Source: Candidatus Pelagibacter sp.
Lineage (GTDB): Bacteria > Pseudomonadota > Alphaproteobacteria > Pelagibacterales > Pelagibacteraceae
Assembly (NCBI GenBank): GCA_002689925.1
Contig: NZIO01000014.1
Coordinates: forward strand, 1-64,000
DNA length: 64,000 bases
Reading direction: 5' to 3'
Below the pieces are notes generated by a model. That model saw only the letters and a list, made by a program, of their open reading frames with translations. It made no database searches and was not told the origin of the DNA. Shown here one piece after another: positions 38,018 through 54,386 of the stretch. A program made the position numbers and the translations under genes. How positions within the stretch are numbered: the first letter of the stretch is position 1; every line of letters begins with the position of its first letter.

Positions 38018-39232
38018 ATGAAAAAAAAATACATTAATCAATTTGGAAATGAAATATTATTTTCTAAATCAGAATACCAAGAAAGAGTTAATAAAGTTAA
38101 AGCGAAGATGCTTGATAACAATATTGATTTATTGTTAGTTTCAAGTCCAGCAAATCAATTTTATTTGACAGGATATGATGGCTGGTCTTTTTATACACCC
38201 CAAATGGTAGTTATTACAATTGATGAAGATCAGCCTTATTGGATTGGAAGACAAATGGATTCAGTCGGGGCAAAATTTACAGCTTACTTGGATAAAAATC
38301 ATATAATTCCCTATCCTGACACTTTTGTAGCTTCACAACTTATACATCCGATGAATTTTTTAGTTGATTTTATCAAAGAAAAAAAATGGGATAAAAAAAA
38401 TATAGGTGTCGAAATGGATGATTACTATTACACAGCAAAATGGAATAATATTTTAATAAAAAATCTTCCAGAAGCAAAATTTCAAGATGCCTTTTTATTA
38501 ATAAACTGGATTAGAATGACAAAGTCAAATCAAGAAATAATCTATATGAAAGAGGCAGGTAAAATTGCTAATCTAGCTATGCAAAAAGCTTTGCAAAAAG
38601 CAAAGATTGGTGTTCGCCAATGTGATGTTATAGCTGAGCTTAATAAGACTACCACCAGCGGTACTAAAAAAATTGGAGGCACTTTTACATGTAAACCACC
38701 TAACGCTATGGTAGGAAAATATTGCAGTGCACCACATTTAAGTTGGACTGATAAAAAATTAAAAAAAAATGAAATTTTTTATATAGAGTTAGGTGGAGCC
38801 AAACATAGATACCATGTTCCATTAGCTAGATGTATTTATATGGGAAAAACACCTAAAAAAATTAAAGATACAGCAAATATTATATGTGAGGGACTTAATG
38901 CGGTTTTAGCAAAAGTTAAACCGGGTATTACTGGACACGAGTTAGAAAAAACTTGGAGAGAAGTTATAAGCAAATATGGTTTAAAAAAAGATTCTAGAAT
39001 AGGTTATCCAGTTGGTATTGGTTTTCCACCAACTTGGGGAGAGTTAACCACAAGTTTTAGAAAAGGTGATAAAAACATAATAAAAGAAAATATGACATTT
39101 CATTGCATACCTGCTTTATGGTTAGAAGAGTATGGAATCGTAATTAGTGAAACTTTTGTAGTAAAAGAAAAAGGTGCAGAAAGACTAACCAATTTCCAGC
39201 AAAAATTATTTGATTTAGAAAATTTTAAATGA
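38018..39232 (+). CDS. M24 family peptidase/creatinase-like protein, ectoine-hydrolase-like
   Basis: A pita-bread fold protein of 404 residues. The N-terminal domain has TGYDGWSFYTPQ near 51, a segment characteristic of DoeA/EutD ectoine hydrolases, and the C-terminal domain spans about 170-395. The metal-ligand positions of true aminopeptidases (D-D-H-E-E) are changed: FYIELGGAKHRYHVPLAR has Glu257 and His266 where two Asp are expected, although ISETF retains a Glu near 378. This resembles metal-independent creatinase-type members, which hydrolyse small C-N bonds rather than peptides. The next gene (GGT-like) overlaps it by 4 bp. Substrate unproven. Confidence 0.75.
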   Translation: MKKKYINQFGNEILFSKSEYQERVNKVKAKMLDNNIDLLLVSSPANQFYLTGYDGWSFYTPQMVVITIDEDQPYWIGRQMDSVGAKFTAYLDKNHIIPYPDTFVASQLIHPMNFLVDFIKEKKWDKKNIGVEMDDYYYTAKWNNILIKNLPEAKFQDAFLLINWIRMTKSNQEIIYMKEAGKIANLAMQKALQKAKIGVRQCDVIAELNKTTTSGTKKIGGTFTCKPPNAMVGKYCSAPHLSWTDKKLKKNEIFYIELGGAKHRYHVPLARCIYMGKTPKKIKDTANIICEGLNAVLAKVKPGITGHELEKTWREVISKYGLKKDSRIGYPVGIGFPPTWGELTTSFRKGDKNIIKENMTFHCIPALWLEEYGIVISETFVVKEKGAERLTNFQQKLFDLENFK

Positions 39233-40743
39233 GATTAAAAACCAAATATGGAATGGTAGTTAGTGGCCACAGAGATGCCACCAAAGCTGGAATGAAAATA
39301 TTAAAAAAGGGAGGAAATGCTATAGATGCTGCAATAGCAACAGCCTCAACACTTGCTGTAGTAATTCCAAATATGAATGGATTGGGAGGTGACAGTATTG
39401 CACTCTGGTATGATGCTAAAAAAAATAAGGTAAAGGTTATAAATGGATCTGGTAAATCACCCATAAAAGCATCAAAAAAATATTTTAAATCTATAGGTTT
39501 AAAAAAAATACCCCAAAGAGGACCTTTATCAATTTCTATACCAGGGGTAGTGCACGCATGGGAAACATCTTTAAAAAAATATGGTAAAAAAAATTTTAAA
39601 GAAGTATTAAAAGATGCAATTAATTTTGCTGAAAAGGGTATTACTATAAACAAATATCTAAAAGATTTCTTAGAGGGTAAAGTTTACAAAAGTTTAATTA
39701 AGAATAATAAAAACTTATCTTCAATTTTTGGAGAAAAAAAAATTTTTAAAATTGGATCCAAAATTAAGCAAAAAAATTTAGCAAAAACCCTTAGAATACT
39801 ATCTAAAGATGGAGCTAAATCATTCTATAAAGGAAAACTATCCAAAATTATAGTTGAAGATATAAAAAAACAAGGATCAATTATAACAGAAACAGATTTT
39901 AAAAATCACTTAACATTAATTCAAAAACCAATCGTAACAAATTATTATAAAAAAAAAGTATATACAGCACCACCTAACTCTCAAGGTTTAGCCTTATTAA
40001 TATTATGTAATTTATTTCAGAATATAAACAAAAAATCAGAAAAAATAAATTTATACAGCTACTTTAAAAATAAGAAAATTGCTTTTAATAATAGAGATTT
40101 TTATTGTATAGATCCAACTATTTCAAAAATTAATTTTAAAAAAATTAAAGATTTAAAAAAAAATATATATTTTAAAAAAAAGGATTATAAAAAAAATATA
40201 TCTGGAGATACAAGTACACTTGTAGTTGTTGACAAACATGGTAATGCTGTGAGTTGGGTGCAAAGTTTATTTGAAGAGTTTGGGAGTGGGATTGTTTCAT
40301 CAAGAACTGGTGTTATATTACATAATAGATTATATTTAGAAAAAATTGATAACTCTATTAATTATTTAAAACCTAATAAAAGACCATTCCATACACTATG
40401 TCCATCCATAGTTTCAAATGGAAAAAGGTGTGATTTAACAATTGCAACACCTGGTGATCATGGTCAACCACAAACTATTTTTCAAATTTTACACCATGTA
40501 TATAAAAATAATATTCAAATACAAAAAGCAATTGATTTACCACGTGTAAGACATAATAGTGCAAATACTATTCTAGTAGAAAAAAACTACCTTGATAAAT
40601 TTAATTATAAAAAAAAAGATAAGATATTAAAAATATATAAATATAAGAAAAAAAATAGAATATTTGGTGGTGTCACAGCAATAAAAATAAATTCAAATAA
40701 AACTTTATCCCGTGGTGCTGATAAAAGAAGAAATTGTTATTAA
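39229..40743 (+). CDS. Gamma-glutamyltransferase-like Ntn hydrolase without signal peptide
   Basis: GGT-family enzymes are autocleaved and hydrolyse or transfer gamma-glutamyl groups, for example from glutathione. GGNAIDAAIATA near 28-39, NMNGLGGD near 48 and the cleavage region GDTSTLVVVDKHGNAVSW near 326-343 place it in the family. The protein starts directly with the catalytic fold (MRLKTKYGMVVSG) and has no export signal, so it is predicted cytosolic, unlike E. coli GGT. By hand alignment with E. coli GGT the nucleophile position falls on Ser329 rather than Thr. It is translationally coupled to the M24 gene and converges on a TauE/SafE gene. Confidence 0.83.
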   Translation: MRLKTKYGMVVSGHRDATKAGMKILKKGGNAIDAAIATASTLAVVIPNMNGLGGDSIALWYDAKKNKVKVINGSGKSPIKASKKYFKSIGLKKIPQRGPLSISIPGVVHAWETSLKKYGKKNFKEVLKDAINFAEKGITINKYLKDFLEGKVYKSLIKNNKNLSSIFGEKKIFKIGSKIKQKNLAKTLRILSKDGAKSFYKGKLSKIIVEDIKKQGSIITETDFKNHLTLIQKPIVTNYYKKKVYTAPPNSQGLALLILCNLFQNINKKSEKINLYSYFKNKKIAFNNRDFYCIDPTISKINFKKIKDLKKNIYFKKKDYKKNISGDTSTLVVVDKHGNAVSWVQSLFEEFGSGIVSSRTGVILHNRLYLEKIDNSINYLKPNKRPFHTLCPSIVSNGKRCDLTIATPGDHGQPQTIFQILHHVYKNNIQIQKAIDLPRVRHNSANTILVEKNYLDKFNYKKKDKILKIYKYKKKNRIFGGVTAIKINSNKTLSRGADKRRNCY

Positions 40744-41483
40744 ATAATAGCTTGTCCCAAAACTATTATAGCACTTATAAAACATATTATCAGTATAAGT
40801 TTTTTTAGATTTATGTTTACATAATCTTTAACAATTTTTTGTCTACCTAATATTATTCCAAATATAATTCCAGGGACTAGCAATAAACATCTCACTACTT
40901 CTCTAAAATTTATTAGATCAATATAAATTAATACTAAAACAGAAAATAAAGCTCCAATACCAAAAAACATATTTAAAGTAGCAACAACATTTTTAGAAGA
41001 ACTATTTTGATACACGATTGCCATAGGAGGACCTCCTACACCAGTAAGAGTTCCCATAAAGCCAGAACAAGCTCCAGCAACTGTTATATTTCTTTTTGTA
41101 GCTATAATATTCCATTTTTTAGCACTTAAAAATACCGTGATTAAAAGCAATATACCAAAAATTATTAAAAAACTTTTTGTACCAAATGTTAATGAAATTA
41201 AAGGAACCGAAAGTAAAGTTCCAAAAACTCTTCCTGAGAACGAATAAGCTAAATCTTTCAGGATAACATCTTTTAAACTTAGTAATGCGTTACTAAAGGC
41301 TAAAAATGTACCCATTAAAACAATACAACTAGGAACCATAGTAGGCTCAAAAAGAATTAAAAAACAAGCGGGAATACCAAAACCGATACCCACAGCACTT
41401 TGCGTTGTTGCTCCAATAACTATTAGAAACAAAGCTAAATAATAAAATTCTAATGAAGAATAGTAACCAAGAATGCTAAGCAC
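40740..41483 (-). CDS. TauE/SafE family membrane transporter
   Basis: A 247-residue membrane protein with about eight hydrophobic helices. The two-repeat pattern with ATTQSAVGIGFGIPACFLILFEP and TGVGGPPMAIVYQNSS matches the TauE/SafE (DUF81) family of small-anion exporters or importers. Some members handle sulfite or sulfonates, others sulfate or lactate-type anions. It lies 2 bp after the racemase-like gene and is probably cotranscribed with it, so its substrate may be connected with that reaction. Confidence 0.85.
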   Translation of the reverse strand: MLSILGYYSSLEFYYLALFLIVIGATTQSAVGIGFGIPACFLILFEPTMVPSCIVLMGTFLAFSNALLSLKDVILKDLAYSFSGRVFGTLLSVPLISLTFGTKSFLIIFGILLLITVFLSAKKWNIIATKRNITVAGACSGFMGTLTGVGGPPMAIVYQNSSSKNVVATLNMFFGIGALFSVLVLIYIDLINFREVVRCLLLVPGIIFGIILGRQKIVKDYVNINLKKLILIICFISAIIVLGQAII

Positions 41484-41485
41484 TT

Positions 41486-42247
41486 TTATTTTCTAGGATC
41501 ATCATGATCTGGATTAAACCTTGTAGGTAACAACCCTGACTGAAACCATTCTATAAAAGTATAAATATTAAATACAGGAATGTTAAATTTTTTTCTGATA
41601 TCTGCAGCAAAAGGACTCATGTTAGTACATTCCATCACTAAGGCACCAATATTAGAATTTTTTTTTAATAATTCTTCAACCGCTTCTATATGGTCTTGTC
41701 TAGCTAAATCTATATCCATTTCTTTTTCATCATTTATGATGACTCTAGTAAATTCTTTTCCATTTTCGGTCCCTATAACAGGTGTATCTAATGGAATATT
41801 AGCAGCTTTTAAATGGGCTTCTTTTAAAGAAGGTTTGTGAATAGTTAGAATCCCAACTTTTTTATTTTTTGGCAGCAAACTTTGAACCATTGGTACTTGC
41901 ATTAAAGAAGAGGTTGCAACTGGAACATTTACAGCTTCAGCCATTTTTTTTTGAAACAATGATAAAAAACCACAGTTAGTTGTAATGCCATCAGCACCCA
42001 TTCTAACCAATTCTTTTGCAGCACTTATAAAACCATCTAAAATTTCTTTACCTTCATCATAAACCGCCTGTTTTGGTGTTGCTCCAGGTACTATTCTATA
42101 ATGCACTGGAACGCTCCATGTTCTCGCATTAGCTATATCTCCTGGTATTCTTGGAAATTGAGTATCTAGCATGCAGACACCTACAGTACCTCCGTATACA
42201 GTTTTGCCACCAACAGCTATATTTTTGATATTACTTCCAACTACCAT
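41486..42247 (-). CDS. Aspartate/glutamate racemase superfamily protein
   Basis: A 253-residue protein with the two-cysteine pattern of the Asp/Glu/hydantoin racemase superfamily: GADGITTNCGFLSLF near 105 and GALVMECTNMSPFA near 210. The first Cys would deprotonate one face and the second the other. Members include amino acid racemases, maleate isomerase and EutA of ectoine use, so the substrate is not fixed. It is divergent from the ThDP gene; ATTATA at 42260-42265 (TATAAT on the minus strand) is a plausible -10 for it. It forms a pair with the TauE/SafE gene. Confidence 0.8.
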   Translation of the reverse strand: MVVGSNIKNIAVGGKTVYGGTVGVCMLDTQFPRIPGDIANARTWSVPVHYRIVPGATPKQAVYDEGKEILDGFISAAKELVRMGADGITTNCGFLSLFQKKMAEAVNVPVATSSLMQVPMVQSLLPKNKKVGILTIHKPSLKEAHLKAANIPLDTPVIGTENGKEFTRVIINDEKEMDIDLARQDHIEAVEELLKKNSNIGALVMECTNMSPFAADIRKKFNIPVFNIYTFIEWFQSGLLPTRFNPDHDDPRK

Positions 42248-42292
42248 AAATAAACCCTAATTATAATTTCCTTCTAAAGCAAGTAATTAAAT

Positions 42293-42320
42293 TTGACAGG
42301 GACATTTTTTTATATTTAAT
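42293..42320 (+). promoter_or_regulatory. Strong sigma-70-like promoter, apparently giving a leaderless mRNA
   Basis: A perfect TTGACA (42293-42298) is followed after 16 bp by TTTAAT (42315-42320), 5 of 6 to TATAAT. The expected transcription start is about 7 bases later, at or next to the A of ATG 42327. No Shine-Dalgarno sequence is present, which fits a leaderless transcript. Confidence 0.6.
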
Positions 42321-42326
42321 TATACT

Positions 42327-44012
42327 ATGTCTAAAGGCTCTAATTATTTAACAGGTGCTGAAGCACTGGTTAAACTACTAGAAAAACATGAAGTTAAATA
42401 TATTTTTGGGCTTTGTGGCGATACGACTTTACCTTTTTATGATGCACTATATAGGTTAAATCACTCAATTAAGCATATTTTAACAAGGGATGAAAGAAGC
42501 GCTAGTTACATGGCAGATGCCTATGCAAGAGTTACAGGTAAAGTTGGAATTTGCGAAGGACCAAGTGGTGGTGGTGCAACTTATATAATACCAGGAATTG
42601 TTGAAGCAAATGAATCTTCAATATCAGTAATTGCAATAACAAGTGATGTTCCCACTAGTTCAATTGGTCATTTTCCTTTAACAGAATTAAATCAAAAAGA
42701 ACTATTTAAACCCTTAACTAAATGGAATGAAAAAATAGATAAAGCCAAAGAGTTAGCAAAGATAATTAGAAAATCCTTTGAAGAAAGTACATCTGGCAGA
42801 CCTGGAGCATGCCATCTTTGTTTTCCATATGATGTTCAAAAAGCAGAAGTGGAGGAAGAAGACTTATGGGTTAATAAAGAATTTACAAAATTTCCTGCTC
42901 AACCTAAATCACCAGATCCACAAAAAATAGATCAGATAATTGAAGAAATATTAAAATCAAAAAAACCAATGATTATCTGTGGTGGTGCTATAAAAAATTC
43001 ATTTGCTGAAAAAGAATTACAAAAATTAGTTGAAAAAATTAATATTGTTCTTGCAACAAGTGTAACAGGCAAAGGAACATTAGCTGATACTCACCCAAAT
43101 TGCTTAGGGGTAGTTGGAAGTAATGGTGGTTCAATATATACAAGAGAAATTACAAAAAATTCAGACTTGGTAATTTTTATTGGCTGCCGAGCTGGCTCAG
43201 TAACGACAGAAAAATGGCAATATCCCAACAAACAAACTAAAATAATTCATATAGATGCAGACCCAAAAGTTATAGAAGCAAACTACAAAACACACATTTC
43301 ATTGATAGCAGATGCAAGACTTACATTAATTGAGTTAAATAAAAAAATTAAAAAATTTAATTTTGAAGGTAAAAAGATAGTAAAAGAAGTAAAAAAAAAT
43401 AAATTTAAGGAATTTAATAAACTTTGTGATGAAAATAAGGGTTTAATAAAACCAGAACGTGTTGTTAAAGAGCTTAATAATACTCTTCCAGAAGATGCAT
43501 ATATAGTTGTCGATCCTGGTACGCCCTGTCCATATTTTGCTTCTTACTATAACTTTTCAAAATCTGGAAGGTATTTCTTAACTAATCGTGCTCATGGGGC
43601 TCTTGGCTATTCTTTATCTGCATCAATAGGAGTTCAAATTGGACAGCCAAAAAATAAAGTTGTTGCAATTATGGGCGATGGAAGTTTTGGATTTACAGTA
43701 GGTGAATTAGAAACTGCTATGAGACTTAAATTACCTATTATATTCATTGTAATTTCAAATAGTGTATATGGCTGGATAAAAGCAGGACAAAAATCTAGCT
43801 TTAATAAAAGATATTATTCAGTAGATTTTACAAGAACTGATCACGCAAAAGTTGCTGCTGCATATGGCCTCAAAACATGGACAGTAAAAAAACCAAAAGA
43901 TCTTAAAAAAATAATTTTAAAAGCACTTAAACAAAAAAACCCTTGTCTAATAGATATTATAAGTCAACCCTTACAAGATGCAAAAGCACCCGTAAGTGAA
44001 TGGATTGCATAA
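42327..44012 (+). CDS. Thiamine-diphosphate-dependent enzyme (acetolactate-synthase-like)
   Basis: A 561-residue three-domain ThDP enzyme. The N-terminal pyrimidine-binding domain keeps the catalytic Glu context in TRDERSASYMADAYARVTGK near 55; the middle domain has the VTGKGTLADTHP and IGCRAGSVTTEKW segments; the C-terminal ThDP domain has MGDGSFGFTVGELETAMR with the downstream NSVYGW metal-diphosphate motif. The family includes acetolactate synthase, benzoylformate and sulfopyruvate-type decarboxylases and related 2-oxoacid enzymes. No regulatory ilvN-like partner is adjacent, so a catabolic 2-oxoacid reaction is more likely than valine synthesis. The neighbouring amino-acid oxidase could supply a 2-oxoacid. 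Confidence 0.82.
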   Translation: MSKGSNYLTGAEALVKLLEKHEVKYIFGLCGDTTLPFYDALYRLNHSIKHILTRDERSASYMADAYARVTGKVGICEGPSGGGATYIIPGIVEANESSISVIAITSDVPTSSIGHFPLTELNQKELFKPLTKWNEKIDKAKELAKIIRKSFEESTSGRPGACHLCFPYDVQKAEVEEEDLWVNKEFTKFPAQPKSPDPQKIDQIIEEILKSKKPMIICGGAIKNSFAEKELQKLVEKINIVLATSVTGKGTLADTHPNCLGVVGSNGGSIYTREITKNSDLVIFIGCRAGSVTTEKWQYPNKQTKIIHIDADPKVIEANYKTHISLIADARLTLIELNKKIKKFNFEGKKIVKEVKKNKFKEFNKLCDENKGLIKPERVVKELNNTLPEDAYIVVDPGTPCPYFASYYNFSKSGRYFLTNRAHGALGYSLSASIGVQIGQPKNKVVAIMGDGSFGFTVGELETAMRLKLPIIFIVISNSVYGWIKAGQKSSFNKRYYSVDFTRTDHAKVAAAYGLKTWTVKKPKDLKKIILKALKQKNPCLIDIISQPLQDAKAPVSEWIA

Positions 44013-44019
44013 TTTATAA

Positions 44020-45267
44020 ATGAATAATCAAAAGAGAAAAATAACAATTATTGGAGCAGGTATAATTGGAATTTCTTCTGCATTAAATTTAATTAGAAGA
44101 GGTTACGATGTAACAATAATTGAAAAAGAAATTGATGGTGAGTCAGCATCTTTTGGTAATGCATCTTGGCTATCTGCACCATCTATAACACCTGTATTAA
44201 CTCCTGGGATAATCTATAAAATTCCTAAAATGTTATTTTCTTCTAATGGCCCTCTTTTTTTAAGATTTCCAGGTGTAGTTAAAATTTTACCATGGTTATT
44301 TAAATATTTAACTTACTCAACAGAAAAAAAAGTGAATCATATATCAAAACATTTAGAACCTTTGCTTAGAAATAGCATAGAAGAACACAAGAAATTAGCA
44401 GAAGGGACAGATGCTATACAATGGATTAAAGAAACACCATATTTATACTTATACAAAAATAAAAATGATTACTCTAAAGATTCTTTTACTTGGAATATTC
44501 GAAAGAATTATGGCTTCACCTTAATAGAGGTTCAAAATGATGAACTTCATGAATTAGTACCAGGTCTTTCTGAGGACTATACTTTTGCAATTAAAATAGA
44601 AAATCAAGGATATATAACTAATAGTAAAAAATATTTAAAAGATTTATTAGAGGGTTTTAAAAACTTAGGTGGAAAAATTATAGAAGAAGAGGTTTTGAAT
44701 ATTAATTCTAATGAAAAAGATATTAAGATTAAAACTAATATCAGTGAACTTTTATCAGACAATATTTTAATTACAGCTGGTGTTTTTTCAGACACGTTGT
44801 CTAAAAAATATGGGGCTAATGTTCCATTACAGTCAGAAAGAGGTTATCACTTAGAATTAAAAAAAACAAATTTAGAACTTAAATATCCGTTGATGAACGG
44901 TTATTTAAAACTTGCAATAGCACCTAAGCCATTAAATGGAATAAGGTTTGCTGGTCTTGTAGAGTTTGGAAGCATTAAATCAAAACCAAATCATAAAGCA
45001 TATGATTTACTTATGAAAAATGCACAATCTATGTTTCCTGGAATTTCATACAAAGAAAAAAGTGAGTGGTCAGGGCATAGACCAGCAACTGTAGACAGTC
45101 TTCCATTAATTGGAAAGTCACCAATAGATGAAAAAGTTTTTTTTGCTTATGGACATCACCATATTGGTTTGACAGCTGGACCAAAAACAGGTGAATTGAT
45201 AACAAAAAATATTTCAAGAGATAATGATCAAATAGATTTATCAGCTTATAAGCCAAATAGATATTAA
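44020..45267 (+). CDS. FAD-dependent amino acid oxidoreductase (DadA-like)
   Basis: A 415-residue DAO-family flavoprotein. The FAD motif ITIIGAGIIGISSALNLIRRG at 8-28 is followed by GESASFGNASWLSAPSITPV, typical of D-amino acid dehydrogenases, and the C-terminal FAYGHHHIGLTAGPKTGELI flavin-contact motif. Such enzymes oxidise D-amino acids, or small secondary or N-methylated amines, to imino then 2-oxo acids. It follows the ThDP gene by 7 bp, so the two may act in sequence. Exact substrate is unknown. Confidence 0.83.
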   Translation: MNNQKRKITIIGAGIIGISSALNLIRRGYDVTIIEKEIDGESASFGNASWLSAPSITPVLTPGIIYKIPKMLFSSNGPLFLRFPGVVKILPWLFKYLTYSTEKKVNHISKHLEPLLRNSIEEHKKLAEGTDAIQWIKETPYLYLYKNKNDYSKDSFTWNIRKNYGFTLIEVQNDELHELVPGLSEDYTFAIKIENQGYITNSKKYLKDLLEGFKNLGGKIIEEEVLNINSNEKDIKIKTNISELLSDNILITAGVFSDTLSKKYGANVPLQSERGYHLELKKTNLELKYPLMNGYLKLAIAPKPLNGIRFAGLVEFGSIKSKPNHKAYDLLMKNAQSMFPGISYKEKSEWSGHRPATVDSLPLIGKSPIDEKVFFAYGHHHIGLTAGPKTGELITKNISRDNDQIDLSAYKPNRY

Positions 45268-45359
45268 TTGTTCAATTATGAGTTGTATATAATTTTATTT
45301 GAATTTTTTTTTTTTTCGTGATCAGATTGAATCAATAATAATAAAATAGAGGAGATAAA

Positions 45360-46340
45360 ATGATAAAAAGTATTATTAAATTATTCTCAACAGTATTGTT
45401 TTCAATCGTGTTTGCATTAAATGTACAAGCGGCTGAAAAATGGGATATGCCTATGGCATATTCTGCAACAAACTTTCATAGTCAAAATGGAGTTATGTTT
45501 GCTGACGCTGTAAGAATAGCAACGGGTGGAGAGATAGATATAACAGTTCACGCAGGTGGTTCATTATTTAAAGGTGGAGAAATTAAAAAAGCAATTCAAA
45601 CAGGTCAAGTACCTATTGGAGAAAGATTGCTTTCTGGACACCAAAACGAAAGTTTAATTTTTGGTACTGACTCTATTCCTTTTCTTGCAACTTCTTATGA
45701 TGCATCTGATAAACTTTGGAAACATTTAAAACCAGAGTTAACAAAAATATTAGATTCTCAAGGTTTGGTACTACTTTATGGTGTGCCTTGGCCTTCACAA
45801 GGATTGTATTTTAATAAAGAAATAAATTCAGTTGCTGATACAAAGGGAATTAAATTTAGATCTTATAATAACTCGACTGCAAGAATAGCTGAACTTATGG
45901 GTATGTTACCTGTACAAGTTGAAGCTGCAGAATTATCTCAAGCTTTAGCAACAGGTGTTGCTTCATCTTTTGTTTCTTCAGGAGCAACTGGATATGATAG
46001 AAAAGTTTGGGAACATCTAAGTCATTTTTATGAAGTAAATGCTTGGTTACCTAGAAATTATGTAATGGTTAATAAAAAATCTTGGAAAAAGATTGGTAAA
46101 AAAAACCAGGATATAATTATGGGTGTTGCAGCAATGGCTGAAGCAGCTGGTACAGCAAGATCTGAGCAACTTTCTGGTTGGTATTTATCCCAGTTAGCTG
46201 CAAATGGTATGACTGTTACTGAAGCAAAAGGTCAATTAAGAAAAGACTTGGAATCAATCGGTAAAACTATGTCTGATGAGTGGATGGCTAACGCTGGCTC
46301 TGTTGGAAAAAAAATTATCGCTGGATTCAAATCTGAATAA
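45360..46340 (+). CDS. dctP: TRAP transporter substrate-binding protein (DctP family)
   Basis: Periplasmic receptor of a tripartite ATP-independent transporter. A signal peptide (about 1-23, ending VQAA) precedes a 326-residue DctP-fold protein. The region GIKFRSYNNSTARIAELMGMLPVQVEAAELSQALATG contains the arginine that normally contacts a carboxylate ligand. A strong GAGGAG ribosome binding site lies at 45349-45354, and TATAAT at 45288-45293 may be its -10. A terminator hairpin directly follows, so the receptor is probably made in excess over the membrane subunits. The ligand is probably an organic or amino-acid-like acid. Confidence 0.92.
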   Translation: MIKSIIKLFSTVLFSIVFALNVQAAEKWDMPMAYSATNFHSQNGVMFADAVRIATGGEIDITVHAGGSLFKGGEIKKAIQTGQVPIGERLLSGHQNESLIFGTDSIPFLATSYDASDKLWKHLKPELTKILDSQGLVLLYGVPWPSQGLYFNKEINSVADTKGIKFRSYNNSTARIAELMGMLPVQVEAAELSQALATGVASSFVSSGATGYDRKVWEHLSHFYEVNAWLPRNYVMVNKKSWKKIGKKNQDIIMGVAAMAEAAGTARSEQLSGWYLSQLAANGMTVTEAKGQLRKDLESIGKTMSDEWMANAGSVGKKIIAGFKSE

Positions 46341-46365
46341 TAAAAAGAAATAGAAATAATTAAAT

Positions 46366-46399: not shown

Positions 46400-46407
46400 A
46401 AAATTTT

Positions 46408-46947: not shown

Positions 46948-46956
46948 AAAAAAAAT

Positions 46957-48270
46957 ATGGAACATTTATATTTAACAATTATTTTTATTTTTACATTATT
47001 TTTCCTTTTAGGAAGTGGTGTATGGATTGGATTGGCTTTAATTGGGGTTGCTTATGTTGGGATGGAAATATTCACAGTTCGTCCTGCAGGAGATGCAATG
47101 ATCACAACTATATGGACAACATCATCTAGCTGGTCTTTAACTGCATTACCATTATTTATATGGATGGGTGAAATATTATATAGAACCAAACTTTCTGAAG
47201 ATTTATTTAAAGGTTTAGCTCCTTGGATGAACAATTTACCAGGAAGATTATTACACACAAATATTGTTGGATGCACTTTTTTTGCCGCAGTATCAGGTTC
47301 TTCAGCAGCTACATTAACTACAGTTGGTAAAATGTCCGTGCCAGAATTGAGGAAAAGAGGTTACCCAGAAAATATGACAATAGGAACTTTAGCTGGTTCA
47401 GCCACACTTGGTTTAATGATTCCACCATCTCTAACTTTAATAGTTTATGGAGTTACAATTAATGAATCGATAATTCAGTTATTTATGGCAGGAATTTTAC
47501 CCGGCTTAGTTTTAGCCTCTCTTTTTATGGGGTATGTTGCAGTCTGGTCTACTCTCAATAAAACTAAAATGCCAGACAAGGATCCACAAATTAAGTTTTT
47601 TGAAAAAGTAAAAAGTTCAAGATTTCTAATACCAATATTTTCTTTAATCATATTTGTAATTGGATCTATGTATATGGGTTGGGCTACACCCACAGAAGCA
47701 GCAAGTTTTGGAGTTATTGGTGGATTAATACTTGCATCTTTACAAGGTTCTTTAACCGTCAAAACATTTTTAGCAAGTTTAATGGGAGCAACAAAAACAT
47801 CATGCATGATAGCTTTTATTTTAGCTGGAGGAGCTTTTTTAACAATGTCAATGGGGTTCACTGGATTACCTAGAACAATTGCTGAATGGATTGGATCAAT
47901 AGGTTTATCAAATTTAGAACTATTACTTTGTTTAATGGTTTTTTATATTATTCTAGGATGTTTTTTGGATGGGATTTCTTCCATAGTTTTAACAATGGCT
48001 GTAGTTGAACCCATGATTAGAGATGCGGGTATAAATGTTATATGGTTTGGAATTTATCTAACAGTTCTTGTAGAGATGGCCCAAATTACACCTCCAGTAG
48101 GTTTCAATTTGTTTGTTTTACAAGGAATGACAAAACATGAGATGTATTTTTTAGCAAAATCTGCATTACCAATGTTTTTAATGATGGTAGTTATGGTTTT
48201 TATAATGATAGCGTTTCCTGAGTTAGCTACATATTTACCAAGCACAGTACGCTCTGCTGGCGCAGGATAA
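46957..48270 (+). CDS. dctM: TRAP transporter large permease (DctM family)
   Basis: The 437-residue ion-coupled channel subunit, with twelve or so helices. AAVSGSSAATLTTVGKMSVPELRKRGYP near 108-135 and GTLAGSATLGLMIPPSLTLIVYG near 142-165 are family signatures; LVEMAQITPPVGFNLFVLQG lies near the C-terminus. Together with dctP and dctQ this makes a complete sodium-driven TRAP system. The enoyl-CoA hydratase gene follows after 7 bp, linking uptake to CoA-thioester metabolism. Confidence 0.93.
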   Translation: MEHLYLTIIFIFTLFFLLGSGVWIGLALIGVAYVGMEIFTVRPAGDAMITTIWTTSSSWSLTALPLFIWMGEILYRTKLSEDLFKGLAPWMNNLPGRLLHTNIVGCTFFAAVSGSSAATLTTVGKMSVPELRKRGYPENMTIGTLAGSATLGLMIPPSLTLIVYGVTINESIIQLFMAGILPGLVLASLFMGYVAVWSTLNKTKMPDKDPQIKFFEKVKSSRFLIPIFSLIIFVIGSMYMGWATPTEAASFGVIGGLILASLQGSLTVKTFLASLMGATKTSCMIAFILAGGAFLTMSMGFTGLPRTIAEWIGSIGLSNLELLLCLMVFYIILGCFLDGISSIVLTMAVVEPMIRDAGINVIWFGIYLTVLVEMAQITPPVGFNLFVLQGMTKHEMYFLAKSALPMFLMMVVMVFIMIAFPELATYLPSTVRSAGAG

Positions 48271-48277
48271 TTAGAGC

Positions 48278-49030
48278 ATGAAAGATAATATTATTTTTGA
48301 AAAAAAAGATAGTATAGGAATAATAACTTTTAATCGTGAAAATGTTTTAAATGCATGGAATAAAGAAATGCGTTTAAAGATTTGTGATATTTTTGACGAA
48401 ATAAAAAATAAAAATAATTTAAAAGCTATAATTTTTACAGGTTCAGGAAATAAAGCTTTTTGTGCTGGACAAGATTTAAATGAATTTAAAGATTTTGATA
48501 AAAACAAAATTGATAGCTGGATAGATGAGTTTAAAAACGTTTATACGGCAGTTAGATCAGCAGAAATACCTGTTATAAGCGCAATAAATGGAGCTGCAGT
48601 TGGCTCTGGATTTCAACTAACTTTGCTTACAGATATTAGAGTTTCTCATAAAGGCGCTAAGTTTGGACAGGTAGAAATTAATTCAGGGGTAGTAAGTGTG
48701 ATAGGACCATGGATAATAACAAAAGTGCTTGGATTATCAAAAGCAATTGAACTTACATTAACTGGAAGATTAGTTATGGGTGAAGAAGCATATAAAAATG
48801 AAATTATTCATCATTTAATTAACAAAAATGAAGTAATGGGGTTTTCTATGAAGATTGCAAAAGAACTGTCAGAAAAACCTGAAAAGGCAATGAAATTTAC
48901 AAAAAGAAGATTGTGGGAAAATTTTAAAAGTGGAATGGAAGAAACTTTTGAAAGTGCAAAGAAATATCACAAACTATCATTTCAATCAGGTGAACCACAA
49001 AAAATAAGTAAAAATTTTTTAAATAAATAA
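48278..49030 (+). CDS. Enoyl-CoA hydratase/isomerase family protein
   Basis: A 250-residue crotonase-fold enzyme. The oxyanion-hole segments IFTGSGNKAFCAGQDLNEF near 50-68 and AINGAAVGSGFQLTLLTDIRV near 97-117 are present, and GQVEINSGVVSVIGPWII near 128 holds the usual acidic position. Members hydrate, isomerise or hydrolyse acyl-CoAs. Between a TRAP system and an acyl-CoA ligase it probably acts on the CoA derivative of an imported acid; a CaiD-like role is one option, not shown. Confidence 0.85.
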   Translation: MKDNIIFEKKDSIGIITFNRENVLNAWNKEMRLKICDIFDEIKNKNNLKAIIFTGSGNKAFCAGQDLNEFKDFDKNKIDSWIDEFKNVYTAVRSAEIPVISAINGAAVGSGFQLTLLTDIRVSHKGAKFGQVEINSGVVSVIGPWIITKVLGLSKAIELTLTGRLVMGEEAYKNEIIHHLINKNEVMGFSMKIAKELSEKPEKAMKFTKRRLWENFKSGMEETFESAKKYHKLSFQSGEPQKISKNFLNK

Positions 49031-49042
49031 TATTTTTAATAA

Positions 49043-50554
49043 ATGAAAAAAAATTTACTACCAAGTAAAACTATTTCAGAATTACTTAATATTAGTTTAA
49101 AAAAAAATCCAAATTATATTGTATATAAAATCAAAAAAAAAAATATTACTAAAATTCAGTTAATAGAAAAGATTTTAAAAGTAAGAGGAGGTCTTTCCAA
49201 AAAAGGTTTAAAAAAAGGAGATAAGGTTGTTAGTGTTTTAGATAATTCATTTGAGCAAATAATTTTATTTTTTGCATGTGTAACACTTGGTGTCATTTGG
49301 GTCCCTTTAGGCAGTGAACGAAAAGGACTGGGATTAGATTATATAATAAATAAAGTTAAACCTAAGATAATATTTTCAGAAAACAAAAAACCAAAAAATT
49401 TACCCACCAAATTAATTAGTAAAGTCCTAAAGATTAATGAAAATTTAAAAAATATAGAATATAAAAAAAAAAATTTTGAACTTTTGGATCAGCACGAAAC
49501 TGCCTGTATATTATTTACATCAGGAACTACAGGCCCACCAAAAGGAGTAATGGTAAGTCAAAAAATGCTACTAGTATCAGCATATGCAACAGGCATTGCT
49601 GCTAAAATAAATTATAAAGATAAATTATTTTTATGGGAATCAATGCATCATATAGGTGGATTACAATTAATAATCTTATTTTTATTAAATGATTTTTATT
49701 TAATTATTTCTAAAAAATTTTCCGCAAAAAAATTCTGGATTGATATTAGACGACATAAAATTACTAAAATTCATTATTTAGGAGGAATACTTGATATATT
49801 GCTTAAATTAAAAAAAAACAAAAAAGATAAAAAACATAATGTTAAATTAGCTTTTGGCGCCGGTTGCAGCGCAATAACATATTCTAGGTTTAAAAAAAGG
49901 TTTAATATTCCTCTAAGAGAAGTTTATGGGATGACAGAAGCGTCAAGTTTTACTTCGATAAACTTTAATAATAAAAAAGACTCTATAGGAAAACCTTTAC
50001 CTTGGTTTAAGGTTAATATTAAAAAAATTAAAAATAAAAAAAATATTGGAGAAATTATAATAAAAGAAAAAGAATTTGGTTTGATTACTAAGGGGTATTT
50101 TGAAGATAAACTGGCAACAAATACTTTGTTGAAAAAAGATGGTTTGCATACAGGCGATTTAGCAACCAAAGATAAAAATAATAATCTTTATTATATAGGT
50201 CGTTTAAAAGATTCTGTTAGAGTTAAAGGTGAAAATATTTCAGCATGGGAAATTGAAACTACTTTAAACAAAAATAAAAATATTTCAGAAAGTGCAATTT
50301 TAGGTGTTAAAGCAGAGATAGGAGAGAATGAAATTGCTGCATTTTTAGTTCCAAAAATTAAAAAAATAAAAATTAAAGAACTCATAAATAGTTATAAAAA
50401 GGAATTTTCTAAATTATACTTGCCTAGATATTGGACATTCATAAATAAATTTCCAAGAACTACTACCTTAAGAGTGGATAAAAAAAATATTAAAATCAAT
50501 TCTTACAGATTTTATGATTCTTTAAATGATGATTTTATTAAAATAGAAAATTAA
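49043..50554 (+). CDS. AMP-dependent acyl-CoA ligase (CaiC-like)
   Basis: A 503-residue ANL-family ligase that activates a carboxylic acid as acyl-AMP then acyl-CoA. The P-loop CILFTSGTTGPPKGVMVS near 152-169, the VYGMTEASSFTS motif near 294 and HTGDLATKDKNNNLYYIGR near 371 are clear. The C-terminal motif reads FPRTTTLRVDKKNIK, where many relatives have P-x4-GK; variant endings of this kind occur in crotonobetaine/carnitine-CoA-ligase-like proteins. It follows the enoyl-CoA hydratase by 12 bp and closes the operon that starts with dctP. Confidence 0.85.
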   Translation: MKKNLLPSKTISELLNISLKKNPNYIVYKIKKKNITKIQLIEKILKVRGGLSKKGLKKGDKVVSVLDNSFEQIILFFACVTLGVIWVPLGSERKGLGLDYIINKVKPKIIFSENKKPKNLPTKLISKVLKINENLKNIEYKKKNFELLDQHETACILFTSGTTGPPKGVMVSQKMLLVSAYATGIAAKINYKDKLFLWESMHHIGGLQLIILFLLNDFYLIISKKFSAKKFWIDIRRHKITKIHYLGGILDILLKLKKNKKDKKHNVKLAFGAGCSAITYSRFKKRFNIPLREVYGMTEASSFTSINFNNKKDSIGKPLPWFKVNIKKIKNKKNIGEIIIKEKEFGLITKGYFEDKLATNTLLKKDGLHTGDLATKDKNNNLYYIGRLKDSVRVKGENISAWEIETTLNKNKNISESAILGVKAEIGENEIAAFLVPKIKKIKIKELINSYKKEFSKLYLPRYWTFINKFPRTTTLRVDKKNIKINSYRFYDSLNDDFIKIEN

Positions 50555-50558
50555 ATAT

Positions 50559-51050
50559 TTAATATTTTGAACTTCCAAGTTCAATAGAACTTTTTAATAT
50601 ATTATATTCTTCACACTTGCAGTCTTCTAAAACCACAAGTCTTTCTTTAGCTTTGTCTATCCTGTTTGTTTCTAAATATAATTCTCCTAAATATTCATTT
50701 ATTCCTACATGATTTGGATCTAAAGATAATCCTTTAAGATAATATTCTTCTGCAACGTCAAAATTACCAATTTTTCTTGAAGCAAAACCTAAATAATTAA
50801 GTGTATCAGGTTGATTTGGTTTTTCTTTATTAGCTTTTTGGAAATATTTTAGCGCTTTATTAAATTTTTTTTTAGCTTTTTTAATATTTTGTTTTTTTTC
50901 ATATTTTTTTGCTTGTTTAATTAAAGAAGCTCCTTTTTTAAAATTATCTATCTTTATTTGATTTCCATCTCCTGAACCTGAGCTAGCAGCATAGCTTATG
51001 TTTGTCAAAATTAGACTAATCAAAATGACGATGAAATGTTTTTTAATCAT
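50559..51050 (-). CDS. Secreted tetratricopeptide repeat protein
   Basis: A 163-residue protein with a signal peptide (about 1-21, ending SYAA), a very lysine-rich linker, then at least three TPR-type helix pairs (PDTLNYLGFASRKIGNFDVAEEY, LDPNHVGINEYLGELYLETNRIDKA). Periplasmic TPR proteins act as protein-interaction scaffolds, but no partner can be named. It lies 2 bp downstream of pxpA on the same strand and converges on the acyl-CoA ligase with a 4-bp gap. Confidence 0.75.
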   Translation of the reverse strand: MIKKHFIVILISLILTNISYAASSGSGDGNQIKIDNFKKGASLIKQAKKYEKKQNIKKAKKKFNKALKYFQKANKEKPNQPDTLNYLGFASRKIGNFDVAEEYYLKGLSLDPNHVGINEYLGELYLETNRIDKAKERLVVLEDCKCEEYNILKSSIELGSSKY

Positions 51051-51052: not shown

Positions 51053-51826
51053 TTATATAAATTTATTCATTTTATTTAATGATTTTAACATTATACCATT
51101 TTTTTTTAAACTGTCCTTAATGACACGTGCAGTATTAAGAGAACTTTTATTGTCACCATGAATACAAACTGAATCTATTTCACAAGGAATTTTTTTTCCA
51201 GACAAACAGTTTAAAGACTGATTTTTAACCATATTCAATACATGATTTTTTGCAATTTCTGGATCTATAATTAATGCGTTTGGTTTTGATCTTGATATCA
51301 AGTTACCATTATCTTCATAGTTTCTATCTGCAAATATTTCACAAGCAATTTTCATGTTAAATTTTTTTGCAGCTATTTCCATTTTTGAACCAGTTGGCAC
51401 AAGATAGATAAGGTCTTTATCAATTTCATTAATTACACTTGCAAGTGTAGTAGCTAGCTCGAGATCCTCACAAGCCATATTATTTAAAGCTCCATGAGGC
51501 TTAATATGTGTAACTTTTTCATTAAATTTTTCAGCTATATTTTGAAGAGCTTGATATTGATCAATGATTAATTTTTTTATTTCTAAAGGTTTTAAATTAA
51601 TTCTTTTTCTTCCAAAATTATCGGGATCATTAAAAGAAGGGTGAGCACCTATACTTACTTCATTTTTTTTCGACATTTCAATAGTTTTTTTCATCGTTTC
51701 ATTGTTTCCAGCATGATAACCACAAGCTATATTTGCAGTATTTACAATTTCTAACAGCAAGTGGTCATTTTCGGTAGAATGAAATTTTGAGCTTTCCCCT
51801 AGGTCACAATTAATATTTATTTCCAT
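51053..51826 (-). CDS. pxpA: 5-oxoprolinase subunit PxpA (LamB/YcsF family)
   Basis: PxpA with PxpB and PxpC forms the prokaryotic ATP-dependent 5-oxoprolinase, which converts pyroglutamate into glutamate. The N-terminus MEININCDLGESSKFH, ANIACGYHAGNNETM, GAHPSFNDPDNFGRK and HIKPHGALNNMA are all signatures of the YcsF/PxpA family. At 257 residues it is full length. It is divergent from pxpB with a 52-bp spacer, so the three subunits are on two transcripts, probably driven from the same intergenic region. Confidence 0.93.
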   Translation of the reverse strand: MEININCDLGESSKFHSTENDHLLLEIVNTANIACGYHAGNNETMKKTIEMSKKNEVSIGAHPSFNDPDNFGRKRINLKPLEIKKLIIDQYQALQNIAEKFNEKVTHIKPHGALNNMACEDLELATTLASVINEIDKDLIYLVPTGSKMEIAAKKFNMKIACEIFADRNYEDNGNLISRSKPNALIIDPEIAKNHVLNMVKNQSLNCLSGKKIPCEIDSVCIHGDNKSSLNTARVIKDSLKKNGIMLKSLNKMNKFI

Positions 51827-51878
51827 ATTATAAAAACATTGTTTATTTAATAAATAATTGTAATTATTATATCAACTT

Positions 51879-52565
51879 ATGTTCAAAAAACTAAATAATA
51901 TTGGAGACAATGGAATAGTTTGTGATTTTGGCACAGAAGTTAGCAAAGAAATAAATACTAAAGTAATTGAATTATTCCAATATCTTAATAAAGACAAAAG
52001 CCTAGAAAAAGAAGTTGGTATATTAAATTGCACACCTTCGTACAACAAATTAATAATAAACTTTGATTTAAGAAAAACAAATGCAGCTGAAGTTTTTAAA
52101 TTTTTAAAAGCAATTAATTATTCTAAATTAAATTTATCAAAAAAAACAACTGAATGGATTATTCCAGTATGTTACGATTTTGGACTAGATTTTGATCGCA
52201 TAGAAAAAAAATTAAAAATCGACAAAGATGAAATCATTGACATACATCTAAAAACTAATTTTTTTATATATATGATAGGATTTACACCAGGACATCCTTT
52301 TATGGGAGATTTAAATTCTAAATTATTTTTAAATCGTTTAGAAACTCCAAGAGTAAAAGTTCCAGCTGGGTCTGTCGGTATAGTTGAAAAATTTTGTAAT
52401 ATTTATCCTCATGAAAGTCCAGGAGGTTGGAATATTATAGGAAAAACTCCTACTAAACTTTTTGATAATTTAAATGGAAAAAAACCATGTCTTTTATCAC
52501 CAGGGGATACAGTGAAATTTAAAGCAATTACAAAAAATGAATTCGAAAATTTTAACAATGAATAA
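51879..52565 (+). CDS. pxpB: 5-oxoprolinase subunit PxpB (allophanate hydrolase subunit 1 family)
   Basis: A 228-residue KipI/PxpB-type protein. The conserved YMIGFTPGHPFMGDL segment near 131, the LETPRVKVPAGSVGI segment near 152 and HESPGGWNIIGKTP near 189 are diagnostic. With PxpC it forms the part of 5-oxoprolinase that phosphorylates 5-oxoproline. Its end overlaps pxpC by 8 bp, indicating coupled translation of the two partners. Confidence 0.93.
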   Translation: MFKKLNNIGDNGIVCDFGTEVSKEINTKVIELFQYLNKDKSLEKEVGILNCTPSYNKLIINFDLRKTNAAEVFKFLKAINYSKLNLSKKTTEWIIPVCYDFGLDFDRIEKKLKIDKDEIIDIHLKTNFFIYMIGFTPGHPFMGDLNSKLFLNRLETPRVKVPAGSVGIVEKFCNIYPHESPGGWNIIGKTPTKLFDNLNGKKPCLLSPGDTVKFKAITKNEFENFNNE

Positions 52566-53520
52566 AAGTTTTTTTAAAGTTTTAAGGGCAGGGATTAATA
52601 CAACATATCAGGATGAAGGTCGCTTTGGCCTTCAGCATTTAGGTATTGCCGCAGGCGGATGCATGGATTATAAAAATTTTTTTTTAGGAAATTCTTTAGT
52701 TAAAAATAAGAGCCAAGAGGGTGTTATAGAATTTGCTTATCAGGGACCTTTATTAAGGCTCATGAAAGGAAATACAAAAATAGCTATAACAGGCAATGTA
52801 TATTTTCAAATTATTTATTCTAAAAATGATAAGAAAATTGATGGAGAGTGCTATAGAAGCTATGATTTAATGGAAGGAGATCAAATTGATATTATAGCAA
52901 CTCAAAAATCAGTTTATGGCTACTTGTCAGTAGAAAATGGATTTGATGTTAAACCTTTTTTTAATAGTATTTCTACTTTGTCTAGAGCACAGATTGGTCC
53001 CAATGAAGGAAAAAAACTAAACACAGATAATGAAATATTTATTAAAGAAAATAGTAAAATTAAGAACAATTTCATTTCAAAGGTAAGTTTTAAAACTAAA
53101 AATATAATTAGAGTTTTAAAAGGGTTTCAGTATGATTATTTTTCAGAAAAAAGTAAAAAAGATTTTTTTTCTAAAAGTTATAATATTACAAATCTTACAG
53201 ATAGAATGGGAATGAGATTAGAAGGAGAAACTATAAACAATATTGTTAATACAAATATAAAATCTGAAGGGATAACAAAGGGAGCGATACAAATTCCAGC
53301 TGACGGACAACCAATAATACTTTTAACTGATCACCCGACTATTGGTGGGTATCCCAAGATAGCTAATGTGATATCTGCAGATTATGACGTGTTAATTCAA
53401 AAAACACCAGGTGAAAATATAGAGTTTAAACTTATTGAGTTGAATGAGGCTGAAGAATTATATAAAGAATATCTTGCAGAAATTAAAGAAATTATAAAAG
53501 ATATTAAAGAAATAAATTGA
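52558..53520 (+). CDS. pxpC: 5-oxoprolinase subunit PxpC (allophanate hydrolase subunit 2 family)
   Basis: The second half of the KipI/KipA-type complex. FKVLRAGINTTYQDEGRFGLQHLGIAAGG at the N-terminus and the C-terminal PADGQPIILLTDHPTIGGYPKIANVI are strong family matches. I chose ATG 52558 (about 320 residues) because the family begins close to this point; ATG 52537 upstream would add seven residues inside pxpB. The TGA overlaps the TTG start of the EamA transporter gene. Confidence 0.93.
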   Translation: MNKSFFKVLRAGINTTYQDEGRFGLQHLGIAAGGCMDYKNFFLGNSLVKNKSQEGVIEFAYQGPLLRLMKGNTKIAITGNVYFQIIYSKNDKKIDGECYRSYDLMEGDQIDIIATQKSVYGYLSVENGFDVKPFFNSISTLSRAQIGPNEGKKLNTDNEIFIKENSKIKNNFISKVSFKTKNIIRVLKGFQYDYFSEKSKKDFFSKSYNITNLTDRMGMRLEGETINNIVNTNIKSEGITKGAIQIPADGQPIILLTDHPTIGGYPKIANVISADYDVLIQKTPGENIEFKLIELNEAEELYKEYLAEIKEIIKDIKEIN

Positions 53521-54386
53521 CCTTAATAACAAAAATACCTGGCACACTTTTAATTTGTTTAGGTGCAATTTGCCTAAGTTTTGGAGGATTAATTGTAAAA
53601 TCTTTTGAAGGAGCTAATTTATGGCAAATTCTTTTTTGGAGACAATTTTTTTTTACTATTGTTGTAGCTTTATATTTGCTTGCTACTTATAAGAAAAATT
53701 TTTTTAAATCATTTTATAATGCTGGAATTCCTGGGTTTGTAGCAGGATTATCTTTGTCAATTGGATTTTCAGCCTATGTATTTGCGATGTATTATACTAC
53801 TGTTGCAAATACAAATTTTATAATTACAACTGAAACAATTTTTTTAGCATTATTTGGATATATATTTTTAAAAGAAAAAATTAATATAATCACTTTTATT
53901 TCAATACTTCTTGGAATGGCTGGAGTTTTGTTAATTGTTGGAAATTCTTTGTCAGTTCAAACAAGTCAAGAATTTTTTGGAAATATAGTTGCTTTTATAA
54001 TGCCAATAACTTTTGCAATACTGGTAATCATAATTAGAAAATATCCAAATATCGATATGGTTCCTTCACAATTTATAGCAGGATTTTTTGCAGCACTTAT
54101 TGGTTTTGTGATTGCAGGAAAAATATTAATTTCACCTCATGATCTTTTTTTAGCTTTTTTAGCAGGCTTTTTTCAAATAGGTTTTGGTTTTATACTTATT
54201 ACCATTGGATCTCAAAAAACACCAGCTGCAGTTGTTGGAGTTTTGATGCTTACGGAAGCTGTTTTTGGTCCTATATGGGCCTGGTTATTTATCAATGAGA
54301 TACCACCAATAACTGTAATAATTGGTGGATCAATAATTATTTTTGCAATTTTGTTTGAATTTTTTTTAAGTAAAAAAGTTAATTAA
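53517..54386 (+). CDS. EamA/DMT superfamily transporter
   Basis: A 289-residue permease with ten predicted helices in two EamA repeats (for example LWQILFWRQFFFTIVVALYLLA and TTVANTNFIITTETIFLALFGYIFLKEKI). The DMT family exports or imports amino acids, nucleotides and other metabolites; the specificity is not visible. The start is TTG 53517, overlapping the pxpC stop as TTGA, so it belongs to the pxpBC operon and might handle a 5-oxoproline- or glutamate-related compound. Confidence 0.83.
   Translation: MTLITKIPGTLLICLGAICLSFGGLIVKSFEGANLWQILFWRQFFFTIVVALYLLATYKKNFFKSFYNAGIPGFVAGLSLSIGFSAYVFAMYYTTVANTNFIITTETIFLALFGYIFLKEKINIITFISILLGMAGVLLIVGNSLSVQTSQEFFGNIVAFIMPITFAILVIIIRKYPNIDMVPSQFIAGFFAALIGFVIAGKILISPHDLFLAFLAGFFQIGFGFILITIGSQKTPAAVVGVLMLTEAVFGPIWAWLFINEIPPITVIIGGSIIIFAILFEFFLSKKVN

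Follow-up and report, generated by a model that had tools for sequence, protein, structure and literature searches.

A racemase, thiamine-diphosphate-enzyme and TRAP-transporter cassette occupies the transporter position beside the 5-oxoprolinase genes in a few SAR11 genomes

SAR11 bacteria dominate surface oceans and have few transporters per cell. The 5-oxoprolinase PxpABC converts L-5-oxoproline (pyroglutamate) to L-glutamate, and the arginine racemase/DauA/AruI route combines a racemase, a flavin adenine dinucleotide (FAD) D-amino-acid dehydrogenase and a thiamine diphosphate (ThDP) decarboxylase. In Corynebacterium glutamicum, pxpTABC places PxpABC beside a transporter (PMC13274462). Two solute receptors (DctP) of tripartite ATP-independent periplasmic (TRAP) transporters from Bordetella pertussis, DctP6 and DctP7, both bind pyroglutamate according to PMC13274462 and PMC12344293, the former giving a KD of 0.3 uM for DctP7. 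Here we describe a locus at positions 38018-54386 of a 64,000-nucleotide stretch (the window) of Candidatus Pelagibacter sp. contig NZIO01000014.1, in which PxpABC genes adjoin an 11-gene cassette encoding a TRAP transporter, a racemase, a DAO-family protein and a ThDP enzyme. With moderate confidence, we interpret it as a SAR11 site of 5-oxoproline scavenging, at which the usual TRAP has been replaced by a catabolic cassette with its own TRAP of the same subfamily.

The 16 kb interval consists of two modules and is not a single pathway. The first, TPR-PxpABC-EamA, is a common SAR11 locus: among 147 order genomes (like our other genome samples, drawn evenly from a larger group), 74 have PxpA. 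A DctP homolog (E<=1e-40) was found in 45 of the 147, all 45 of which also have PxpA, and in 43 of them the two genes lie 1.8-3.2 kb apart; the exceptions are the window (4.7 kb) and G005, a single-contig genome (172 kb). Neighbourhoods were read in 20 stretches from 19 of the 45 DctP genomes. With G005 set aside, all of the fetched genomes (18/18) have a TRAP system adjoining PxpA-PxpB-PxpC, its DctP being 45-50% identical to that of the window. The usual arrangement in these 18 is TerC / TRAP / TPR-PxpABC-EamA; TerC adjoins DctP in 17 of them, and gcvTHP, like EamA an ordinary neighbour, often follows the Pxp locus. The window has the same flanks and different content between them, namely the second module, an 11-gene cassette (38018-50551) in the order M24-GGT-TauE-racemase-ThDP-DAO-DctPQM-ECH-ligase, which occupies the usual TRAP position. 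Because the Pxp locus mostly occurs without the cassette (PxpA in 74/147 order genomes, the cassette ThDP gene in 2/147), the two halves do not form one pathway. A preliminary description of this DNA had proposed one route over the whole interval; the M24-to-ligase block does stand as a gene unit of SAR11, whereas PxpABC, TPR and EamA are mostly found without it. That description named independent distribution and expression of the genes as grounds for refuting it, and independent distribution is what the genomes show for the two halves.

In the Pxp module, the TPR protein (50559..51050, minus strand) belongs to the SAR11 Pxp locus and adjoins PxpA in 16/18 loci other than that of G005. PxpA (51053..51826, minus strand) exceeds the cut-off of NF003814 (296.7 vs 226), PxpB (51879..52565, plus strand; PF02682) is slightly below that of TIGR00370 (141.7 vs 145.55), and PxpC (52537..53520, plus strand; PF02626) passes the domain model TIGR00724 (238.2 vs 230.2), with 187.7 vs 500 for the PxpC equivalog NF045499. 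The EamA-family permease (53517..54386, plus strand; PF00892) is the usual PxpC neighbour in SAR11 (15/18 loci other than that of G005) and not a member of the cassette. Families were assigned from open reading frame (ORF) calls and Pfam/NCBIfam model cut-offs, and these matches bear out the gene families and order given in the preliminary description, including the complete DctPQM and the two permeases, which are TauE and EamA.

The cassette is rare but genuine in SAR11. Its ThDP gene was detected in 2 of the 147 order genomes (E<=1e-90) and in 3 of 397 sampled family genomes (E<=1e-120), and the best 80 matches listed from a scan of named genomes added at least four Pelagibacter/Pelagibacteraceae loci (L135, L136, L137 and L138). 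Carriers are undercounted because the genome samples were drawn evenly from a larger group; the four extra loci came from another collection. Assignment to SAR11 is based on kinship groups and on the named Pelagibacter/Pelagibacteraceae relatives that share these genes. L137 and L138 come from single-cell genomes according to their isolate labels, and in both the full cassette lies between TerC and PxpABC. The left part of the cassette stands beside TerC in L135, up to a contig end inside DctP, and in L136, where the contig ends at the ThDP gene, ThDP-DAO-DctPQM directly precede PxpABC, without crotonase, ligase and TPR. The cassette is therefore in the Pxp slot in five of the seven SAR11 carriers found (the window and L135-L138). 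In G005, all 11 genes stand in unchanged order at a different genomic location, and the TerC-TPR-PxpA slot is empty. In G639, the cassette is cut by a contig end and is not in the slot; TauE-racemase-ThDP follow a CtaA gene, with no M24 or GGT gene there.

Could the genes be unrelated neighbours, or the product of a mis-assembled metagenome-assembled genome (MAG)? The window contig (67.7 kb) comes from a genome with 91.07% completeness and 7.36% contamination, and Pxp and cassette are independently distributed. We nevertheless consider this explanation very unlikely: order and site are shared by two single-cell genomes, and partly by two SAR11 MAGs, which argues against binning or assembly error, so that the assembly form is already refuted, and the same block occurs at another site in the single contig of G005. 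The order is not due to chance, as the identical 11 genes recur in identical order in G005 and the two single-cell genomes. Third-position GC content is also close between the cassette block (0.13-0.20) and the flanking genes (0.12-0.18); with no foreign composition of this kind, recent transfer is not claimed. Separately, genes for an M24 protein 40% identical to that of the window lie near the Pxp locus of two SAR11 genomes, at L035 (position 1144) and L036 (position 1123); the cassette ThDP gene was not found in either genome.

The proposed substrate comes mainly from the receptor. DctP (45360..46340) precedes the small permease DctQ (46408..46947; PF04290) and the large permease DctM (46957..48270; PF06808, TIGR00786), all on the plus strand. 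The AlphaFold2 model of DctP (mean pLDDT 89.4) matched best 6wgm (Z 43.5), DctP6 (2pfz, 42.9) and DctP7 (2pfy, 42.8), followed by the next receptor at 35.3, and sequence matches to these solved receptors ranged from E 3.4e-116 to 6.5e-72. The marine metagenome structure 6wgm is titled as specific for pyroglutamate, and the titles for DctP6 and DctP7 name binding of pyroglutamic acid. In the DctP tree, 6wgm nests among the DctPs of racemase-ThDP-TRAP loci (support 100/99), the SAR11 cassette DctPs are sister to this 6wgm-containing group (96/93), and SAR11 DctPs of the Pxp-linked kind group apart in a clade of their own (100/100); L104 and other over-long ORFs were trimmed at the N-terminus, both Bordetella rows have long branches, and Cl_L085 carries the label 'thdp' without a ThDP gene in its locus. 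The window DctP keeps 64 of the 79 columns identical across the three solved receptors, and 40 columns, including Arg167, are invariant in all 33 DctP rows compared (L085 left out). We infer from the alignment that Arg167 is the equivalent of the conserved arginine to which a selectivity role in TRAP receptors is ascribed in PMC4646407. By model and sequence, DctP belongs to the pyroglutamate-binding subfamily, and 5-oxoproline or a close analogue is our best guess for its ligand. A search of the genome to which the window belongs (91% complete) gave no further DctP homolog; therefore, PxpABC may have to rely on the TRAP of the cassette.

Among the substrates listed in the preliminary description, the D-amino-acid and gamma-glutamyl side fits, with a receptor of the pyroglutamate subfamily; for carnitine or betaine we found nothing, and ectoine is disfavoured. 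Degradation of ectoine or hydroxyectoine would make the M24 protein a DoeA and the Asp/Glu-racemase-family protein an EutA. The M24/creatinase-family hydrolase (38018..39232, plus strand; PF00557/PF01321) is indeed closest to ectoine hydrolase DoeA and aligns with it across 386 residues (6twj, 313 bits), but it falls below the DoeA cut-off (TIGR02993, 410 vs 613), and TeaA of the ectoine system is at Z 32.9, while DctP falls in the pyroglutamate subfamily. Nor was a DoeB-type deacetylase found in the window genome (91% complete; the model matched, below cut-off, in 1/14 control genomes), and no M24 gene was detected close to ThDP in loci from outside SAR11 (105 loci, including 76 of the best 80 listed). 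Of the explanations considered, this is the least probable.

The position beside PxpABC is variable in SAR11. We examined 11 fetched PxpA loci without an adjacent DctP, from 10 genomes without a DctP match and from G005. The slot is empty in six of them (G003, G026, G015, G078, G105 and G005); in two (G011 and G020), TPR and TerC enclose a D-glutamate cyclase gene and a block of genes of transporter size, a similar block adjoins PxpA in G009 and G001, with no TerC within the stretch, and the G064 locus begins at a contig end inside a TRAP. A LIV-type ATP-binding cassette (ABC) system with D-glutamate cyclase is an alternative content of the slot in some SAR11. Pfam checks covered two ABC proteins and the cyclase in G011 and one ABC protein in G009, the cyclase in G020, G009 and G001 coming from a protein search and the remaining ABC genes from size and order. 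D-glutamate cyclase was detected in 6 of the 147 order genomes, within about 5 kb of PxpA by coordinates in 6/6, and none of these six has a DctP match. As the slot comes in empty, ABC-plus-cyclase, TRAP and cassette variants, we regard it as an exchangeable position, which seems to swap transporters and entry enzymes while the 5-oxoprolinase stays constant. The ABC genes and cyclase can be inspected at L125 3519-8995 (both by Pfam), L129, L130 (one ABC protein by Pfam) and L131.

Part of the cassette recurs in other Proteobacteria. Neighbour families were counted up to 8 kb from the ThDP gene with a permissive identity cut-off (22%), with loci unpicked, for 29 class-level ThDP loci and for the 76 non-SAR11 loci among the best 80 of the named-genome scan; a cluster count over 32 hand-picked loci does not enter the evidence. 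Among the 29, 13 have a racemase gene nearby, 8 a related DctP and 7 a DAO gene; loci with DctP have racemase in 8/8 and DAO in 6/8, as against 5/21 and 1/21 in those without. Among the 76, the corresponding counts are 23, 19 and 18, with racemase and DAO each in 16/19 loci with DctP and in 7/57 and 2/57 without, a contrast inflated by the many DctP-less loci that are Achromobacter near-copies. Two Ruegeria plasmids carry racemase-GntR-ThDP-LysR-MLE-DAO-DctPQM. The association extends to class-level DctP loci without an adjacent ThDP gene: among 20 of these, taken from the 22 best-ranked with omission of G404 and G179 (same genus as G307), 11 still carry a racemase gene, a DAO gene or both next to the TRAP, although several of these racemase matches are just 27-36% identical and two that were tested are below the cut-offs of Pfam (26.5 vs 31) and PRK07475 (106.5 and 116.1 vs 231). 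Thus, TRAP, racemase and DAO are the tightest set and ThDP is a frequent partner, whereas M24, GGT, crotonase and ligase are mostly SAR11 additions. Such a core is a recurrent amino-acid-type module, which supports part of the interpretation in the preliminary description. Its families are known and the recurrent combination is new; literature searches on SAR11 with pyroglutamate or oxoproline, on SAR11 solute receptors and on the gene module returned nothing relevant among the papers listed and no characterisation of the core, and one on BbmA/CsmA, ThDP enzymes of similar fold, brought up only unrelated papers. A survey of SAR11 solute receptors may already have characterised the SAR11 receptor.

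In several places, the ThDP gene has other neighbours. On the megaplasmid of Ruegeria pomeroyi DSS-3, a genetically tractable strain, a racemase-GntR-ThDP triad stands beside xanthine-dehydrogenase-type genes (L083 8463-11698), with neither TRAP nor DAO within the 21.7 kb read. ThDP orthologs in L163 and other Achromobacter loci lie beside tripartite tricarboxylate transporter (TTT) receptors and GntR, another transporter context, and a Variovorax PBL-E5 plasmid has GntR-ThDP-TTT receptor-AtuA-DUF4387-RraA (L116 8213-14067).

If the cassette handles 5-oxoproline, its genes may be connected as follows. DctPQM would import 5-oxoproline or an analogue close to it, either cyclic or resembling glutamate, and PxpABC would open L-5-oxoproline to L-glutamate, using ATP. 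The Asp/Glu/hydantoin-racemase-family protein (41486..42247, minus strand; PF01177; PRK07475 311 vs cut-off 231) could interconvert the enantiomers of 5-oxoproline or glutamate. Cofactor-independent amino-acid racemases keep two cysteines; in our alignment Cys92 is present in 15/16 rows (the exception lacks that stretch) and Cys207 in 16/16, and we take these to be the catalytic pair. The FAD-dependent DAO-family protein (44020..45267, plus strand; PF01266, 164.6 bits), which resembles amino-acid dehydrogenases, would oxidise the D-form to a 2-oxo acid. Racemase and DAO beside PxpABC, and D-glutamate cyclase in the ABC arrangement, both suggest by analogy that D-forms are handled.

The ThDP enzyme (42327..44012, plus strand), of an unnamed acetohydroxyacid-synthase-like family with GDG at 450, Asn478 and Glu56 present, might then decarboxylate or couple that 2-oxo acid. 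It scores below the models for the acetolactate synthase large subunit (TIGR00118, 406.2 vs 538.35) and the arginine-route decarboxylase (PRK07524, 296.9 vs 500), and its closest folds are the BbmA/CsmA 'HKA synthases', glyoxylate carboligase and acetohydroxyacid synthase (Z 42.7, 41.6 and 41.5). As several ThDP families tie within about 1 Z, we assign no reaction to it.

The weakest roles are those of the outer genes. The M24 and GGT-type hydrolases may release the substrate from amides or ring compounds, the last steps to acyl-CoA may fall to the ligase and crotonase, and TauE may export an anionic product. The gamma-glutamyltransferase (GGT)-family Ntn hydrolase (39229..40743, plus strand; PF01019) passes TIGR00066 (359.1 vs 357.85) and has a putative nucleophile, Thr328, in the motif GDTSTLVVVD; solved small chains align from about residue 330, and it may be another amidase. 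The enoyl-CoA hydratase/isomerase (ECH, crotonase) family protein (48278..49030; PF00378) and the AMP-forming acyl-CoA ligase family protein (49043..50554; PF00501/PF13193) follow DctM on the plus strand. The names given to two proteins in the preliminary description were not earned, their scores being far below the model cut-offs: 'DadA-like' for the DAO protein (PRK00711, 149.6 vs 383 for D-amino acid dehydrogenase) and 'CaiC-like' for the ligase (PRK08008, 190 vs 651 for crotonobetaine/carnitine-CoA ligase). With nothing pointing to it, a carnitine or betaine substrate was rejected.

The TauE/SafE-family membrane protein (40740..41483, minus strand; PF01925) is perhaps an anion exporter; a TauE-type gene is near ThDP in 4/76 non-SAR11 loci of the best 80 listed and 0/29 class-level loci. 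TauE, together with sulfonate-type genes near two Ruegeria clusters, suggested a sulfonated amino acid as the substrate; this route was rejected with the racemase at 28.9 vs the cysteate racemase cut-off of 190. Among the annotated regions inspected, xsc, pta or sulfate-exporter genes occur only near these clusters (L081 19546-24361, with xsc and a YeiH-type exporter; L082 3005-5113, with pta and a sulfate exporter), which may be coincidence. Membrane proteins without a Pfam match beside DctM in L081 (14838-15770) and L217 (4697-5629), about 38% mutually identical, look BASS-type by eye and are perhaps exporters in the place of TauE.

Several observations weigh against 5-oxoproline as the substrate of the cassette, the main gap being that a ThDP enzyme is unnecessary for converting 5-oxoproline to glutamate; therefore, either a second route is opened or an analogue is the true ligand. 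DctPs linked to ThDP can be told from those linked to Pxp by 24 nearly fixed columns, so that the two groups may bind different ligands, and receptors that co-purify with pyroglutamate may do so through its abundance. Racemase and DAO match no characterised substrate model. Outside SAR11, the cassette TRAP is rarely beside PxpABC: Pxp was found in none of the 19 DctP loci of the best 80 listed, in none of the 8 class-level ones and in one of the 20 DctP loci without ThDP. That one, L217, speaks for the 5-oxoproline interpretation as an independent link between such a TRAP and PxpABC: it has co-directional genes for PxpABC-family proteins, a membrane protein, DctMQP and DAO, with a divergent racemase gene. 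Its PxpB (91.6 vs 145.55) and PxpC (198 vs 230.2) are below the NCBIfam and above the Pfam cut-offs. Near the ThDP gene, no M24 was found in the 105 non-SAR11 loci mentioned above, and GGT, crotonase and ligase are rare (5/76, 3/76 and 2/76 among the best 80 listed; 1/29, 1/29 and 0/29 at class level).

Alternatively, the cassette might degrade another amino acid via racemase, D-amino-acid dehydrogenase and a ThDP 2-oxo-acid decarboxylase, by analogy with the arginine racemase/DauA/AruI route, with pyroglutamate a mimic and PxpABC a bystander in a convenient site. The unneeded ThDP step is the main argument for this, and the arginine-route decarboxylase model does match, though below its cut-off. 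The racemase-DAO-ThDP trio occurs with another transporter, a TAXI-TRAP, in Leisingera and, with a ThDP protein just 35% identical, beside an amino-acid ABC system in Agrobacterium; the racemase homologs of these trios are 35% identical to that of the window, and PxpABC is usually absent beside the trio outside SAR11. The receptor, however, is closest to pyroglutamate-binding proteins, the SAR11 cassette occupies the 5-oxoproline transporter slot in five of the seven carriers found, and the window genome (91% complete) yielded no other DctP to feed PxpABC, so that we regard this alternative as possible and less probable than 5-oxoproline scavenging.

A bolder form of the scavenging interpretation, which we consider rather unlikely, is that marine Proteobacteria have a second, PxpABC-independent route for the enantiomers of 5-oxoproline or a close lactam, made up of TRAP, two-cysteine racemase, FAD dehydrogenase and a new ThDP class. 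SAR11 would finish this route with the CoA ligase and crotonase and join it to PxpABC, one transporter feeding both routes with both enantiomers. More generally, our analysis points to a slot in SAR11 genomes where uptake systems for probably one substrate alternate, and singles out a widespread ThDP family without an assigned reaction beside a racemase and an amino-acid-oxidase-like enzyme. The cassette may show how minimal SAR11 cells obtain glutamate derivatives of either handedness from seawater.

Compared with described systems, the window receptor is alike in sequence, fold (Z 42.8-43.5) and conserved columns (64/79) to the pyroglutamate-binding DctPs; its ligand is proposed from this likeness, and it differs in its linkage to a racemase-ThDP-DAO cassette and PxpABC. 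C. glutamicum pxpTABC and the window both have PxpABC beside a transporter, but the window has a TRAP instead of PxpT, an added cassette and a PxpB slightly below the model cut-off. With the arginine racemase/DauA/AruI route the cassette shares its logic, although its ThDP protein is below the decarboxylase cut-off and its receptor is of the pyroglutamate subfamily. The eut/doe clusters for hydroxyectoine and ectoine have in common with it a TRAP, an M24 hydrolase and an Asp/Glu-racemase-family protein, whereas in the window no DoeB was found, the receptor subfamily is different and M24 is below the cut-off. Finally, BbmA/CsmA, glyoxylate carboligase and acetohydroxyacid synthase are the closest folds to the window ThDP protein, yet only 26-30% identical to it.

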